Part shown: one piece after another, positions 49,752-58,237 of the stretch
Layout of the letters: every line of letters starts with the position of its first letter
How positions within the stretch are numbered: the stretch's first letter is position 1
Source of the DNA: Mucilaginibacter sp.
GTDB lineage: Bacteria; Bacteroidota; Bacteroidia; Sphingobacteriales; Sphingobacteriaceae
Assembly (NCBI RefSeq): GCF_028287845.1
Contig: NZ_JAQBOW010000071.1
Location: forward strand, 1 to 64,000
Direction of reading: 5' to 3'
DNA: 64,000 nt
Translations under genes and position numbers: made by a program
The notes under the pieces: model-generated
The model's input: only the letters and a program-made list of their open reading frames with translations
What the model was told of the DNA's origin: nothing
Database searches by the model: none

Positions 49752-50156
49752 ATATACTTGCAAATTTAAGCACACGCTATTTAAAAGGTAGCTATTACTT
49801 AATTTTTTTACATTGATCCGATATCTGTAGTTTGGCTTCTAAGATTGATTTAAATAAAGAAGATAAATTAGGTAAGATCTTTAATAACTTAACTGCCTGA
49901 AATGTTATTTAATCAGGATGAAAAGAAAGCACTTGCTAAAAAACAATTTGAGGGAATCTTACAGCCATACAGTAAGACCGGCAAGTACTCTTTAGATCAT
50001 TAGCATCTGACTTTATTATAATACTGCTAAATATTCCCTTGTCAAATATTATCAGAACATTTACTAACGGCCAGGTGTTGTATTATATAGTTATAAGCCA
50101 CTATAAATGAGCTTTCTAATAATTGGCAATAATAAATTTTAATAAATACCATAACT

Positions 50157-50675
50157 ATGAAAAAGTTAATCACACTATTAATGCTGCTAGGCAACATTAC
50201 AGCCTTTGCCCAAAGCCAAACGGGGGCCAATCCGGATTCGGCCACTTTAATATTTGTAACCCAGGCCAACTTAAGCAATATGAAAGAGGTACATACCGGA
50301 CAACTGGCCATTAGTAAGGCTAAAACCGCCGGCGTTAAAGCCTTTGGCACCAGGATGGTTGCAGATCATACTAAAGCAGATAATGAGCTGATGCAGATAA
50401 TTAAATCAAAACGTTGGCAGGTATCACCACCGGCTGCTGCCGATGTGGCTCCTGATGATATGCTAACCCGTAGTTTAGGTTATAATTTTGATAGAAACTA
50501 TGTAAGGATGATGGTGCAAGATCACAAAAAAGCTGTTGCTTATTTTGAAACAGCTGCCGTTAATGTACCCGATCCGGAGGTAAAAGCATTTATAAGAAAA
50601 ACTTTGCCTGTGTTAAGGCAACACCTGGCCAGTATACAAACCATTGCCACTAATATGGGTATTACTTATAAATAA
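50157..50675 (+). CDS. DUF4142-domain secreted protein
   Basis: Signal peptide; KAFGTRMVADHTKADNELMQI, YVRMMVQDHKKAVAYFETAA, VKAFIRKTLPVLRQHLASIQTI. Confidence 0.87.
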   Translation: MKKLITLLMLLGNITAFAQSQTGANPDSATLIFVTQANLSNMKEVHTGQLAISKAKTAGVKAFGTRMVADHTKADNELMQIIKSKRWQVSPPAAADVAPDDMLTRSLGYNFDRNYVRMMVQDHKKAVAYFETAAVNVPDPEVKAFIRKTLPVLRQHLASIQTIATNMGITYK

Positions 50676-50988
50676 GCGATTATTAATATTAATGCGTTTG
50701 GTGATTAAAATCGATATAAAAAATTAATTCCCGGGTGAAGTAAGCAAATGCAACAATAAACCTATATCCGTTAAATGTTATTACTGTACCATGTACACGT
50801 TGATGCATCAATTGTGGTACGCTGAAAATTAACGGATTAATAGCAGTTGTGTGCGAATTTGTACTATTAATAAATGGACAGCCTTTGGTAAAATTATGTT
50901 AATAAGTTTTTGAGTGTACTTAAAACACTATATTGTTATTGTTCGTACAATATTATATCTTGTTTTAATTATGGAATAATAATATATT

Positions 50989-51246
50989 ATGGAAAAAATA
51001 TATATAACAAATCAGGTTAAATTAGAAATATTAAATATTGGGGGCCTAGCTTCAACACAACCTTATAATTTAAATGGATTTACACCCTTATTTACCTTAG
51101 GATACAGTAACTTTCCGCATTGTAAAATATTAGAAGACAGGCTACAATCAATAGCAATCCAATACAATACCGGGAAATTGATTTTGCCGGATAGTATATC
51201 AGAAGATCTTACTGTTAAACAGTGTATTGAATTAGTAATGATGTAA
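50989..51246 (+). CDS. small protein of unknown function, directly upstream of the STAND/NACHT-like gene
   Basis: 85-aa ORF 22 nt upstream of 51269; no recognised motif. Confidence 0.6.
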   Translation: MEKIYITNQVKLEILNIGGLASTQPYNLNGFTPLFTLGYSNFPHCKILEDRLQSIAIQYNTGKLILPDSISEDLTVKQCIELVMM

Positions 51247-51268
51247 TGTATAAAAAACAATTTGGGCA

Positions 51269-53836
51269 ATGATAATGAACACGATTTCATTACATCAATA
51301 CGAACAATTAAAAAAAAGAATACTTGTAACAGCCGGTATCAGCCATGTTTTACCCGCAGATTGTAAAGTACTATCACATCGTGTATCAAAAAAAACCGGT
51401 AATAGAATTAGTGAAACTACTTTTAAACGTATATATGGTTTTGCCCATAGTAAGTTTACGCCATCATTGTTTACGCTTGATATACTGGCAAAATATTGTG
51501 ATCATAAAGGATGGAAGGATTTTTGCGAAAAAGAGGATAACAGTTTAATAAAAAACCAGAATGAAAATTTAAACTGGCAATTATTGCAGCAAACCGCTCA
51601 CAAAATAACCGCATTTACACTACAGGCCCTAAAAAACAAATCGGGTATTCCATATAATCAAACTATTAAAAGGGATTTTATTGATTTTCATTTTGATGAA
51701 TTTTTAAACTCTGGCTGTACAGGCACACTATTGACTGCGCCTGCCGGATATGGAAAAACCATAGCACTATGCCATTGGATTGAAGAAAAAATGGCTGCAG
51801 ATGCAGCTAATGGGACTAATGACATTATACTATTGTTTAGCAGCAGTGCTTTAATGAGCGTTTTGCTAAGTGGCAAAGGTTTGAACGACTGGATACTTAC
51901 TTTACTTGGGTACAGTATTGATAATGATATTAATGTTTTATTAGATATTAAGCAAAGGAAGGATAGTAAGTTTTACCTTATTGTTGATGGGTTTGATGAG
52001 TTTATGTTTAAAAATGAGCAATTCAAGGTTACTTTAAATCAGCTAATTGATGTTTTTTCACTTTACCAATCGCACGATTGGTTTAAACTTGTTTTAACTA
52101 CGCGCTTTGCTACCTGGATAAATAATAGCCAGACTATGGAAATTGGTACCGGCACATGGTTTACGGGGCTTGAAAATGATAGTTATAGTAATGTGCCATT
52201 GTTTAATAGAGAGGAGCTTAAAAAGCTTTGCCATAAGATTAACCCCGCAGTAGAAAGCGTTATTTCTATAGAGGTAGCCGAAAGTTTTAATCATCCTTTA
52301 TACCTGCAATTTTATTATAAACTTAATAAAGTAAACTTCTCATTAAACAGTGTTGATCATTTTTCTATCTATGAATTGATCTCTACATTCATTATACATA
52401 GGGTTTTTCTGGGCAATTACCCTACAGAAAAATTATTGTTTATTAAAAAGTTTGTTGAAGCGCTTGATTTTGAAAATGATGTTTACCAAATAGATAGATT
52501 ACAGGTGAATGATCTTATAAAGCAATATAGCCATGCCTACCAGGAGTTATTAAGTATAGGCTTTTTAAGAGAAACGAATGAAAGCAGTAAGTACCATTAT
52601 AATAACTGCATAGTATTTGGTAATGATAATTTTCTGGAGTATAGTATTGCCAGGATATTACTTTATGAAAATAGTAACTTGTTTGATGCTGATTTGATTA
52701 AAAGAATAAACACTTTACTAGCTAATAGCCCGCGGAAAGTAGAGGTATTAAAGTGGTGCATAATGCATGCTATAAACTCGGGCCAGTTAAGAAATATCGA
52801 CCAATTAACAGAGGCGATCCTGGGATCAAATGAAAAATTAGAGTTGATTATATTTTTGGGCAAATTGTTGGAGAAAGAATCCTTATCAGTAAAAAACAAT
52901 GAAGCTCTGGTGCAGTATTTTAAGCAGCCTTTTAGTAAAAAAATATTTGAATATTTTTTCGGATTTGAGCTTATTAATCCGGACTATAAAAAAGTGCTGA
53001 ATGTTTTATTAAAATTTGAGTTTTCAACTAAAAAAAAGATATTAATTCATACTACTTTAGGAATAATAGCAGCTATTCAGCTTGATTTAAATGAGCTGGA
53101 GGCTTGCCTTTTAAATTTAAAAGCCTTCCAAAAAACAGCGTATGATTCTTTTATCATAAATCCATTAAACTGCCTTGATGCTTTATACTATCATTTAAAA
53201 TATGGCATTATTAAACGGGAGGTTCTGCGCGATCTGACTAAATTATCATTTAATCCGCCCACAGACAGAACGGGGTTTAAAAAATGTGCATCAAATGACC
53301 TATTGTATTTATTGGGGTTAAATACAATGATGTTATGCTATAACTCTAAAAAAACAATCAGGTTTATTGAATTTTTAAAGAAAAATTATAAACCTGATTT
53401 GTTTGGTGATAATACAACGCAATATGGATTCTTTTTAAAAGTTATAACTGCCGATGCTTATTATGATTTGGGTAATAATACAAAGGTAGCAGAAACGTAT
53501 TACGCTATTTCTAACGCTTATAAAAATAGCGGGGAACGGTTAACGCCTTATATGAAAATTTTGTTTCATAACCTAAAAGTTAAAACCTTAATAAACACAC
53601 CGCGTGCAATTCATATCGTTACCGAAATGAAAAGCATTAATGCCATTGCTGATAAATCCGGCTATAAATTTCCTAAGCTGTATGTATCTGTGATATTATT
53701 AAAGAGCGCTGATTTGCAAACATCAATGCCCAAATTGTATAAACAGGTAAATTATGATTTTATAAAAATGCTACACGAAAATAAGCTAAACACCAAGATT
53801 TTTTTGCAGCAGAATGCAATAAGTAATGGAGCATAA
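51269..53836 (+). CDS. STAND/NACHT-like P-loop ATPase with conserved N-terminal HTH-like domain
   Basis: Walker A LLTAPAGYGKTIALCHW; Walker B FYLIVDGFDEFM; downstream KLVLTTRFATWI sensor-like; N-terminal KVLSHRVSKKTGNRISETTFKRIYGFAHSKFTPSLFTLDILAKYCDHKGWKDFC; long helical C-terminus. Confidence 0.8.
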   Translation: MIMNTISLHQYEQLKKRILVTAGISHVLPADCKVLSHRVSKKTGNRISETTFKRIYGFAHSKFTPSLFTLDILAKYCDHKGWKDFCEKEDNSLIKNQNENLNWQLLQQTAHKITAFTLQALKNKSGIPYNQTIKRDFIDFHFDEFLNSGCTGTLLTAPAGYGKTIALCHWIEEKMAADAANGTNDIILLFSSSALMSVLLSGKGLNDWILTLLGYSIDNDINVLLDIKQRKDSKFYLIVDGFDEFMFKNEQFKVTLNQLIDVFSLYQSHDWFKLVLTTRFATWINNSQTMEIGTGTWFTGLENDSYSNVPLFNREELKKLCHKINPAVESVISIEVAESFNHPLYLQFYYKLNKVNFSLNSVDHFSIYELISTFIIHRVFLGNYPTEKLLFIKKFVEALDFENDVYQIDRLQVNDLIKQYSHAYQELLSIGFLRETNESSKYHYNNCIVFGNDNFLEYSIARILLYENSNLFDADLIKRINTLLANSPRKVEVLKWCIMHAINSGQLRNIDQLTEAILGSNEKLELIIFLGKLLEKESLSVKNNEALVQYFKQPFSKKIFEYFFGFELINPDYKKVLNVLLKFEFSTKKKILIHTTLGIIAAIQLDLNELEACLLNLKAFQKTAYDSFIINPLNCLDALYYHLKYGIIKREVLRDLTKLSFNPPTDRTGFKKCASNDLLYLLGLNTMMLCYNSKKTIRFIEFLKKNYKPDLFGDNTTQYGFFLKVITADAYYDLGNNTKVAETYYAISNAYKNSGERLTPYMKILFHNLKVKTLINTPRAIHIVTEMKSINAIADKSGYKFPKLYVSVILLKSADLQTSMPKLYKQVNYDFIKMLHENKLNTKIFLQQNAISNGA

Positions 53837-53837
53837 A

Positions 53838-53870
53838 AAAAGGCTCCCTGGTAACCAGGGAGCCTTTTTC
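53838..53870. terminator. intrinsic (bidirectional-looking) terminator
   Basis: AAAGGCTCCCTGG TAA CCAGGGAGCCTTTTT between convergent NACHT-like gene and infB. Confidence 0.85.
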
Positions 53871-53889
53871 TGTTATAAAGTTAATGCTA

Positions 53890-56853
53890 TTAAAGCTTGC
53901 GTTTAACCTCTACATTTTCGTAAGCTTCAACAATGTCACCTACTTCGATGTTGTTAAAGTTTTGGATATTTAAACCGCACTCGTAGTTTGCCGATACTTC
54001 TTTAACATCGTCTTTAAAGCGTTTTAATGAAGCCAGTTCGCCGGTATAAATAACCACACCTTCGCGCACTATACGTATTTTACTGTTACGGGTAATTTTA
54101 CCATCTAATACCATACACCCTGCAATGGTACCAACCTTGCTAATCTTGAAGGTTTCGCGTATCTCTACGTTAGCAACAATCTTCTCTTCGAAAGTTGGTG
54201 CAAGCATGCCTTCCATAGCAGCCTTGATCTCGTTGATCGCATCGTAGATGATAGAGTAAAGCCTGATATCAATTTGCTCGGCCTCGGCCAGTTTACGTGC
54301 GCCACCTGAAGGACGTACCTGGAAACCAATAATTATCGCGTCAGAAGCGGAAGCTAATAATACATCAGATTCTGATATCTGTCCAACAGCTTTTGATATA
54401 ACGTTAACCTGTATCTGCTCGGTAGATAGTTTCAACAATGAATCGGATAACGCTTCAATTGAACCATCCACGTCACCTTTAACAATAATATTAAGCTCTT
54501 TAAAGTTACCAACTGCCAAACGGCGGCCAATTTCATCAAGGGTGATATGTTTTTGTGTGCGTAAACCTTGTTCGCGTTGTAATTGTAAACGCTTATTGGC
54601 AATCTCACGTGCTTCAACTTCGGTTTCTAACACGTTAAATTTATCACCAGCTGTTGGCGCGCCCTGCATACCTAATACCTGTACCGGTGTTGATGGCCCT
54701 GCAGATTCAACACGCTGGCCGCGCTCATTGGTCAATGCTTTTACACGACCGCTGTAACAACCCGCTAAAATAGGATCGCCTACCTTTAATGTGCCTGCCT
54801 GTACTAATATAGTAGTAACAATACCACGGCCCTTGTCTAAAGCTGCCTCAATAACAGTACCAACGGCACGTTTCTTAGGATTAGCTTTAAGTTCTAACAA
54901 TTCGGCTTCAAGCAACACTTTTTCTAAAAGCAGATCGATGTTTAAGCCTGTTTTTGCCGAAATTTCTTGTGTTTGATATTTACCACCCCATTCTTCAACC
55001 AAAATATTCATGGCCGATAGTTGCTCACGCACCTTGTCGGCATTAGCACCCGGGCGGTCAATTTTATTGAATGCAAATATAATTGGGGCACCTGCAGCCT
55101 GTGCGTGGTTTATAGCCTCGCGGGTTTGCGGCATCACACTATCATCAGCAGCAATTACAATAATTACAATATCTGTTACCTGTGCACCCCTTGCACGCAT
55201 AGCGGTAAACGCCTCGTGACCCGGTGTATCCAGGAATGTTATTTTTCCTTTATTATCTGGCAATGTTACTTCATAGGCACCAATGTGCTGGGTAATACCA
55301 CCGGCTTCGCCACCTATAACATTTGTTTTACGTATAAAATCAAGCAATGAGGTTTTACCATGATCTACGTGGCCCATTATGGTTACAATAGGTGCACGGG
55401 GGATCAGATCTTCCGGAGCATCCGGTTGATCAAGGATAAATTCTTCGTCCTGTGGTTTTACAAACTCAATCTGGTAGCCAAACTCATCAGCAACAATACT
55501 TAGTGTTTCTGCATCAAGACGTTGGTTAATGGATACAAACATACCCAGGCTCATACAGGTTGATATGATCTGCGTTACAGGCACATCCATCATTATCCCT
55601 AACTCATTAGCCGTAACAAATTCTGTAACCTTCAATACTTTTGATTGCGCATCTTGCTCTAATGCCAACTCATCCGCATTTGCAGCCACATCATCACGTT
55701 TTTGACGACGGAATTTAGCCCGCTGTGCGAACTTGCCAGATTTACCTGCGCCGCTTAAACGGGCAAGCGTTGCCTTAATTTGGTCCTGTATATCTTTTTC
55801 TGAAGGCTCTTCTTTAGGGCCGGTACTTGCCGGAGCATTACGGTTAAAGTTATTATTAGGGCGATTGCCTTGATAGCCGCCACCGGTATTATGAGGCCTG
55901 TTCCTGAAATCAGGACGATTGGCGTTATTATTGTTATTACCGCCACTTTGTGGAGCTGTGCCACCACCAGCCGGATTAGCTCCCTGCTGATTGTTAGTGC
56001 CGCCACTTTGTCCGGGAGGTGGATTATCTTTACGTTTTCTTTTACGTTTATGATCCGCATTAGTGTTTGATGATGAAGCTACCGGGTTACGTTTTGGCAC
56101 AACAGGTAAAGTTATCCTGCCAACAATATTCGGCCCGCTTAAACGCTCGGCCTTAGCTCTGATAACATCATGGTCGCCGCCACCTTCTTCATTAGGTTCA
56201 ACAGCAACAGGTGTTACAACCGGAGTCGCTATTTTTTTCACCTCTTCAGCCTTAGGTGGCTCTGGTGCAACTTCCTTTTTAATTTCAGCTACCGGTTCTG
56301 ATAGTTTTATTTCTTCTTTTGGTTCTTCTTTTATTTCTTCTTTTAACGCAACAGGCTCTGGCTTTACAACTTCTTTTTCAATCTTCTCGATTGGTTTAGC
56401 ATGTAAGTTATTCAGATCTATTTTCCCAACAACTTTTACACCCGGAAGTGAATCGGAACTTTGCTCTTCTACCTTTACAGGCTCAGGAGCAGGTACCGGC
56501 TTTGGTATTTCAGCCTGAACAGATGGGGCAGTGTAATTGCCGGCATTTTTTATCAGAATCTCTTCATTCTCAAAATCCCTTGAACGACGGTTTGTTTCAA
56601 CCGGCTTATCAGGAGTAATGCCAGGCTCGTCTTTACGTATCTTGCCGATACTTATCTGCTTGGCTTCTTCCTTGATACTTTTGTCAACAGCAAACTCTTT
56701 CAACAATGCGCCGTACATGTCGTTATCCAGCTTTGCCATAGGTTGTTTTTCAACCTTGTAGCCTTTGGTAGCCAAAAAATCGACAATGGTACCCATGCCA
56801 ATGTTAAGCTCTTTTACTGCTTTTATTAATTTTATTGATTTGTCTTCTGACAT
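53890..56853 (-). CDS. infB: translation initiation factor IF-2
   Basis: [73 protein letters not shown]. Confidence 0.97.
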
Positions 56854-56916
56854 TTATTAATTCTTTCTCTGCTTTATTGTAATGCAAAAATACGATTTTA
56901 ATTTTGCTTATTTTTT

Positions 56917-58152
56917 TTATTCAAATTCTGCTTGTAAAACTGATAGTACTTCTTTTACTGTTTCTTCTTCTAAATCGGTACGTTTTACCAATTCGCCTAC
57001 AGTTAAAGCTAAAACCGATTTTGCTGTATCTAAACCAATACGTTTAAACTCATCAATGATCCAGCTTTCAATTTCATCTGAAAATTCTTCAATATCCACA
57101 TCTTCATCATGCTCATCAGCCTCACGGTAAACATCAATTTCATAACCGGTTAATTTACCGGCCAGTTTAATATTATGCCCGCCACGGCCTATCGCTAATG
57201 ATACCTGGTCGGGTTTTAAATATACTGCCGCTGTTTTTTTCTCATCATCCAGTTTAATAGATGTGATCTTAGCCGGCGATAATGCACGTTGTATATATAA
57301 TTGAATATTATTAGTATAGTTTATTACATCGATATTTTCGTTCTTCAACTCGCGAACGATACCATGTATACGCGATCCCTTCATGCCCACACAAGCACCA
57401 ACCGGATCAATACGATCATCGTATGATTCAACCGCTACTTTAGCTCTTTCGCCCGGCTCGCGTACAATTTTCTTGATGGTTATTAAGCCATCAAAAATTT
57501 CAGGTACTTCCAGCTCAAATAAGCGTTGTAAAAACTCAGGCGCTGTGCGCGATATAATGATCTTAGGGTTGCTGTTAAGCATATCTACCTTATAAACAAT
57601 AGCTTTTACGCTATCGCCTTTTTTAAAGTAATCGGCAGGTATTTGCTCTGTTTTGGGCAATAAAAGTTCATTACCTTCATCATCAAGCACTAAAGTCTCT
57701 TTTTTCCATACCTGGTAAACTTCACCTGTAACAATTTCACCAACGCGGTCTTTATATTTCTTAAATATCTCGTCTTTCTCCAGTTCTAATATTTTAGATA
57801 CCAGTGTTTGGCGAGCGGCTAATATAGCACGGCGACCAAAACTCTCTAAAGTGATCAGCTCAATATAGTCATCACCTACTTCCAGATCCGGATCAAGCGT
57901 TTTCGCTTCTTTTAATTCAATTTCCAGGTCATCATCCTCGCTAAAGCCATCTTCCATAACCACACGTGTGCGCCAAATTTCTAAGTCGCCATTATCCGTA
58001 TTCACAATTACGTCACAATTTTCATCTGTTCCGTATTTTTTGCGGATCATACTTCTGAAAACGTCTTCCAACACGCTCATCATCGTTGGACGATCGATGT
58101 TTTTGAAATCTTTGAATTCCTGGAAAGAATCAATTAAATTAATATTGCTCAT
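56917..58152 (-). CDS. nusA: transcription termination/antitermination factor NusA
   Basis: IISRTAPEFLQRLFELEVPEI, VESYDDRIDPVGACVGMKGSRIHGIVREL, VSLAIGRGGHNIKLAGKLTGYEIDV. Confidence 0.97.
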   Translation of the reverse strand: MSNINLIDSFQEFKDFKNIDRPTMMSVLEDVFRSMIRKKYGTDENCDVIVNTDNGDLEIWRTRVVMEDGFSEDDDLEIELKEAKTLDPDLEVGDDYIELITLESFGRRAILAARQTLVSKILELEKDEIFKKYKDRVGEIVTGEVYQVWKKETLVLDDEGNELLLPKTEQIPADYFKKGDSVKAIVYKVDMLNSNPKIIISRTAPEFLQRLFELEVPEIFDGLITIKKIVREPGERAKVAVESYDDRIDPVGACVGMKGSRIHGIVRELKNENIDVINYTNNIQLYIQRALSPAKITSIKLDDEKKTAAVYLKPDQVSLAIGRGGHNIKLAGKLTGYEIDVYREADEHDEDVDIEEFSDEIESWIIDEFKRIGLDTAKSVLALTVGELVKRTDLEEETVKEVLSVLQAEFE

Positions 58153-58237
58153 TTTTCATTAAAGTTATTTGTTCATTAAAGGCAATGAAGCTATCATGGG
58201 CTTGTTCTTTTTTTTAAGCTGTAGCTCATGATGGTTC

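Follow-up and report, generated by a model that had tools for sequence, protein, structure and literature searches.

A STAND/NACHT-type ATPase of Mucilaginibacter as a candidate MalT-like regulator of giant type IX adhesin genes in Bacteroidota

The 855-aa protein encoded in the window, i.e. the whole stretch of 64,000 nucleotides of Mucilaginibacter DNA analysed here, may be a MalT-like STAND transcription regulator that, with its N-terminal domain on a directional DNA repeat, controls a neighbouring giant type IX adhesin gene. We give this reading a probability of about 0.65. The wider proposal, that an NLR-like STAND regulator family with a new N-terminal DNA-binding domain controls giant adhesins across Sphingobacteriales and Chitinophagales, and that its Mucilaginibacter members receive input from a two-component system and from a protein of acyl-carrier-protein (ACP) fold that lacks the serine, stands at even odds in our judgement. 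If true, a conserved set of regulator, DNA site and target would open the question of adhesin control in Bacteroidota, where the timing of the production of multi-thousand-residue surface adhesins is, to our knowledge, little studied. The family would also enlarge the small number of STAND proteins known to act as transcription regulators and not as immune sensors, the N-terminal domain would represent a DNA-binding family not described before and shared with membrane-anchored proteins, and a bacterial NACHT-like ATPase need not mean a phage-defence gene.

Both genes of interest lie on the plus strand of a Mucilaginibacter genome, and all relatives of their products that were found are from Bacteroidota. 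An 85-aa ORF (50989-51246) is followed after 22 nt by the 855-aa ORF (51269-53836). Upstream of the pair is a DUF4142-like gene, which we take to be such by eye from its sequence and not from a tool, and downstream is the convergent infB. Between the ATPase gene and infB a hairpin (53837-53869, plus strand; 15-bp stem, -27.7 kcal/mol, z -7.09) carries a U-run on each of the two strands and is probably a bidirectional terminator; it was not called in a simple pattern scan for terminators. The GC content is 0.29-0.35 at the pair and about 0.43 in infB. The sequence-only reading had described this layout, with a strong terminator at its end and a composition more AT-rich than that of infB, and all of it was confirmed; the small ORF is moreover a real gene, with 15 aligned homologs and a dN/dS of 0.16. 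A single transcription unit of the two genes is plausible, and comparison with a relative (L099, below) shows that the ancestral unit was longer than two genes. A sigma-70 promoter scan of the locus was uninformative; Bacteroidota promoters differ from the sigma-70 type.

The ATPase begins with a five-helix N-terminal domain (residues 1-97, 51269-51559; the helices span residues 8-95), proposed here to bind DNA, in which alignment shows a conserved SETT-KR-GFA core. A STAND NTPase module follows (residues 98-450, 51560-52618), delimited by the AlphaFold2 model, PDB fold matches and a NACHT profile match at residues 158-262, and then a C-terminal repeat region (residues 453-850, 52625-53818), all-helical in the modelled secondary structure and presumably the sensor. 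Within the module are a Walker A motif (APAGYGKT, residues 157-164, 51737-51760), a Walker B motif (LIVDGFDEF, residues 237-245, 51977-52003) and a sensor-like stretch KLVLTTRFATWI (residues 273-284, 52085-52120) that contains R279. These motifs, on which the sequence-only reading had relied, are not due to chance: across 99 non-redundant homologs G162 of Walker A and D240 of Walker B are invariant (99/99 each), K163 is kept in 94 and R279 in 98. The N-terminal domain is the best conserved domain in the same 99 homologs, and the C-terminal repeats are the least conserved (0.34-0.41 versus 0.49-0.54 in the homolog alignment).

An AlphaFold2 model of the ATPase (pLDDT 84, from a 25-sequence alignment) matched STAND proteins in the PDB with E values of 3e-7 to 2e-4. 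The best match was 6mfv, a STAND-TPR protein (E 3e-7), and others were SAMD9, Avs4, NLRP14, Avs5, CED-4, NLRC4 and NOD2. Global TM-scores were low (0.2-0.3), so the match is one of the NTPase module, with a flexible arrangement of domains. The predicted fold places this bacterial ATPase among the relatives of the immune-receptor ATPases of animals and plants. The Pfam NACHT profile scored 20.3 bits (E 5e-4), below its curated cut-off of 26.7, and the protein is filed as STAND with NACHT-like motifs and not as strict NACHT. Predicted fold and conserved motifs together support the earlier assignment as a STAND/NACHT-like sensor ATPase with a signalling function.

Gene maps were drawn for 40 relatives and 80 named loci. 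In these the ATPase gene adjoins, mostly divergently, a gene whose product is exported and exceeds 2,000 aa. The arrangement recurs in Chitinophaga, Pedobacter, Parapedobacter, Olivibacter and many Mucilaginibacter. Outside Mucilaginibacter, 38 of the 44 named loci (L133-L177 without L170, related strains included) have the two in divergent orientation, no more than 1 kb apart. In the one giant that was scanned there are 19 Ig_7 repeats together with a CHU_C signal for type IX secretion, and PorP/SprF and OmpA-family genes come after the giant gene in some loci. Such downstream genes and a giant, CHU_C-signalled repeat adhesin are shared with the SprB/SprF type IX adhesin system of Flavobacterium (PMC9870892), from which the adhesin here differs by its Ig_7 repeats and its own N-terminal domain. 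In the open-access literature no paper was found on a STAND ATPase beside a SprB/SprF-like giant adhesin, nor any joining NACHT or STAND proteins with Mucilaginibacter or type IX adhesins.

The linkage extends to gene content. Among 251 family genomes, probed with the giant's N-terminus and with the ATPase at full length and tallied by hand, 76 have both, 8 the ATPase only, 12 the giant only and 155 neither (Fisher p 1e-41, relatedness ignored). Within the genus of the window all 18 genomes with the giant also have the ATPase, and the 12 giant-bearing genomes without it belong to genera g8 and g16. Genomes of g16 in which the N-terminal domain of the giant is present and a full-length ATPase is not are G112, G137, G166, G196, G199, G211, G217, G238, G247 and G107. 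In Mucilaginibacter sp. 44-25 (L083:7713-10269, also L130) the ATPase is split by a stop into 189 and 675 aa alongside an intact giant, and is a natural broken copy.

Upstream of the ATPase gene or of its operon lies a directional 15-bp repeat, TTCATTTTGTTCATT, made of two TTCATT units 9 bp apart. At two mismatches or fewer the 46 divergent regions contain 73 matches (3.1 per kb), each of them on the ATPase strand, and the flanks 10 (0.012 per kb), related strains being included in these counts. The best forward match is within two mismatches in 42 of the 46 regions and the best reverse match in none. Genome-wide the repeat is rare: with one mismatch allowed it is found at 0-22 places in a genome. 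The motif came from an alignment of Pedobacter and Chitinophaga divergent regions that make up part of the 46, so the fair tests are the heads of operons and the ATPase paralogs without an adjoining giant.

Operons of the first kind, in Mucilaginibacter, run c6-c5-histidine kinase-response regulator-small gene-ATPase, and were not used in motif discovery. Their first gene, c6 (L057:13198-13575; L099:4910), represents an unclassified family of ~125 aa at the start of the two-component operon; a C-terminal CPPxC motif is conserved in it, and Pfam gave no match. The repeat lies upstream of c6, at three mismatches or fewer, in 18 of 18 listed loci with the ATPase or its N-terminal domain (15 distinct after removal of duplicates), and in none of the four c6 operons without an ATPase, where the best match has six mismatches (Fisher p 1.4e-4 on all rows; p = 1/3876 = 2.6e-4 on the 19 distinct loci). 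Paralogs without an adjoining giant also carry it upstream (L103, L119, L115, L112). At one locus (L075) a free 95-aa N-terminal domain, which may be a recent truncation, replaces the ATPase, and the site is kept. ATPase loci with no recognisable site are L117, L134, L167, L171 and L123-L125.

The repeat thus goes with the ATPase rather than with the adhesin or the two-component genes nearby, and binding of the repeat by the N-terminal domain would be the simplest reading. Two other roles for the repeat were considered and rejected. The response regulator as its binder does not agree with two-component loci without the ATPase, which are without the repeat, and a mere promoter element of the adhesin does not agree with ATPase paralogs that carry the repeat with no adhesin alongside.

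Against known DNA-binding families, Pfam and PDB-profile searches with the N-terminal domain gave no match, and HHalign against the XRE domains of the window's genome gave a probability of 6.8%. A known helix-turn-helix, suspected by eye from a lambda-repressor-like PSLFTL..LA, was rejected since all three approaches were negative. Relatives of the domain also occur in other proteins, free-standing or preceding a transmembrane segment. Proteins of ~420 aa at L195:1476-2768, L196:1019-2311, L197:1214-2470 and L198:1370-2599 combine a diverged N-terminal domain with one transmembrane segment and an extracytoplasmic part; this layout is typical of one-component regulators, and the proteins look like membrane-anchored members of that class. 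The repeat is absent at the membrane-anchored and other diverged relatives of the domain. In genome G061 a free 73-aa N-terminal domain gene (L202:2943-3164) adjoins OmpA- and SprF-like genes, with no repeat at two mismatches or fewer.

That the domain falls outside recognised DNA-binding families, together with the strong linkage of ATPase and giant, would also suit a post-transcriptional role, in which the ATPase serves as a cytosolic chaperone or in quality control of the long type IX substrate and another factor binds the repeat. This is unlikely, as the site follows the ATPase even without an adjoining giant and without a response regulator, and ATPases are conserved without a giant in 8 genomes.

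The locus in the window is a reduced form of the Mucilaginibacter operon. The nearest named relative, the Mucilaginibacter sp. RYN_311 MAG (L099), is 93% identical in the ATPase, 95% in the small protein and 97% in InfB, and its gene order at the same place is DUF4142-c6-c5-histidine kinase-response regulator-small gene-ATPase-infB, with an exact TTCATTTTGTTCATT at L099:4827, 83 bp before c6. By blastn, L099 3647-4618 corresponds to window 49927-50870 and L099 7601-14870 to window 50872-58161, so that at the junction (50870-50872) 2,982 bp of L099 (4619-7600) are missing, containing c6, c5, the histidine kinase, the response regulator and the exact site. Because distant relatives have the same gene order, this is a loss in the window and not a gain in L099. 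A clean deletion of ~3.0 kb appears, on these alignments, to have removed four genes and the DNA site in the window lineage, and it could be recent.

Neither an adhesin nor a TTCATTTTGTTCATT site was found at the window locus, and with the N-terminal probe the giant is absent from both the window and L099 genomes. Other parts of the window genome do contain Ig_7 repeats, in some cases close to the end of a contig, so a giant may lie there unassembled. The loss of the c6-c5-kinase-regulator genes and of the site, with no giant found, could mean that the remaining pair is an orphan remnant that has lost its role since the deletion and is on its way out. Both ORFs are intact, however, as are the ATP-binding motifs. 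Between the window and L099 the dN/dS is 0.165 for the ATPase and 0.159 for the small gene, similar to the 0.149 of the DUF4142-like gene (infB, 0.062), and at ~0.16 the two genes do not look decayed. A remnant on its way out is, in view of this, rather improbable.

The 85-aa protein (50989-51246) is a member of the family found in the c6-c5-kinase-regulator-small gene operons, with a mean column identity of 67% over 15 aligned sequences. Its C-terminus looked ACP-like by eye before modelling, and AlphaFold2 predicts a small helical bundle (pLDDT 90.6). Of the 50 PDB fold matches listed, practically every one is an ACP or an ACP chain of a complex, with TM-scores up to 0.68, the matches being individually weak (each E > 0.2). 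The likeness to acyl carrier proteins is one of predicted fold: Pfam and PDB profile searches gave no sequence match to them, and the 15-sequence alignment has no conserved serine at the site of phosphopantetheine attachment, for which reason the protein is not filed as an ACP.

The earlier proposal of a two-gene module holds in part. About two thirds of the 15 mapped small-gene loci also have the ATPase, and most also have the kinase and response regulator. Five of the 15 are without the ATPase, four of them with an intact c6-c5-kinase-regulator set and one with kinase and regulator only, and ATPase loci of Pedobacter and Chitinophaga are without the small gene. The small ORF does not, then, always accompany the ATPase, each occurring without the other in the mapped loci, and an obligatory partnership is rejected. 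By its gene neighbourhoods the 85-aa protein is no less a part of the c6-c5-kinase-regulator operon than a companion of the ATPase.

Transcriptional control of the adhesin by the ATPase could proceed as follows. The C-terminal helical repeats would sense a signal, and the NTPase module would act as a nucleotide switch and drive oligomerisation, both by analogy. An oligomer could line up several N-terminal domains on the directional tandem repeat. Bound there, upstream of its own gene or operon, the ATPase would control the neighbouring giant adhesin gene with its sprF/ompA-type partners. In Mucilaginibacter, where the regulator gene often closes the c6-c5-histidine kinase-response regulator-small gene-ATPase operon, the ACP-fold protein could plausibly serve as an accessory ligand or as an inhibitor. 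A deletion in the window lineage took out the two-component genes together with the DNA site and left the small gene and the ATPase, both apparently still constrained. Computation shows the predicted STAND fold and the conserved ATPase motifs, the linkage of the ATPase with the adhesin and with the repeat, the deletion, and the predicted ACP fold of the 85-aa protein. We infer DNA binding by the N-terminal domain, from sequence comparison, together with oligomerisation of the ATPase, a function for the 85-aa protein, and control of the adhesin gene by activation instead of repression.

The analogy is based on the structure and mechanism of MalT (PMC10427625). MalT and other STAND activators (PMC10427625) share with the ATPase a STAND NTPase and a helical repeat sensor region. 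Targets preceded by several tandem DNA sites of one direction are common to MalT and the ATPase family, the window locus being without a site. MalT also has a small partner, MalY, of which the 85-aa protein is a possible counterpart. In contrast to MalT, the proposed DNA-binding domain is N-terminal and appears unrelated to the LuxR-type domain of MalT. There is no significant match in sequence; in a PDB sequence-profile search with the ATPase, E. coli MalT was the sole hit, at a non-significant E of 0.19.

The sequence-only reading had put forward a defence or signalling system as a candidate. The ATPase resembles the anti-phage bNACHT and Avs proteins (PMC12169576) in its tripartite STAND architecture, NACHT-like ATPase and fold matches to Avs4 and Avs5; it differs in having no recognised effector domain and in its linkage with adhesin genes and with a DNA repeat. 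Clade-14 bNACHT proteins are likewise without a discernible N-terminal effector domain (PMC12169576). An anti-phage sensor of the bNACHT/Avs type, triggering cell suicide or an effector upon infection, would accord with the STAND fold shared with Avs4, Avs5 and NLRs, with the weak Pfam NACHT match and with the patchy presence of the ATPase within the genus, but it is very improbable, as PADLOC gave no match to the window ATPase at E 10 and only scattered weak Cas3/GajB matches in a few of 25 relatives, searches of phages, plasmids and viral contigs gave no relative of the ATPase, Pfam and PDB profiles recognised no N-terminal effector domain in it, and its conserved neighbours are the giant adhesin and two-component genes, with a conserved DNA repeat upstream.

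Further sites of the repeat were noted. In the Pedobacter-like genome G173 an adhesin-SprF-response regulator group and a second giant gene have two oppositely oriented sites between them (L183:5360-5408), a pair that suggests a wider adhesin regulon. In the window's genome, contigs C23 and C52 overlap at their ends by more than 100 bp and share an exact TTCATTTTGTTCATT (L179:4491-4505 and L180:6455-6469). This site is ~180 bp upstream of a gene for a 1121-aa acyl-CoA mutase-like protein, a possible remaining target in that genome.
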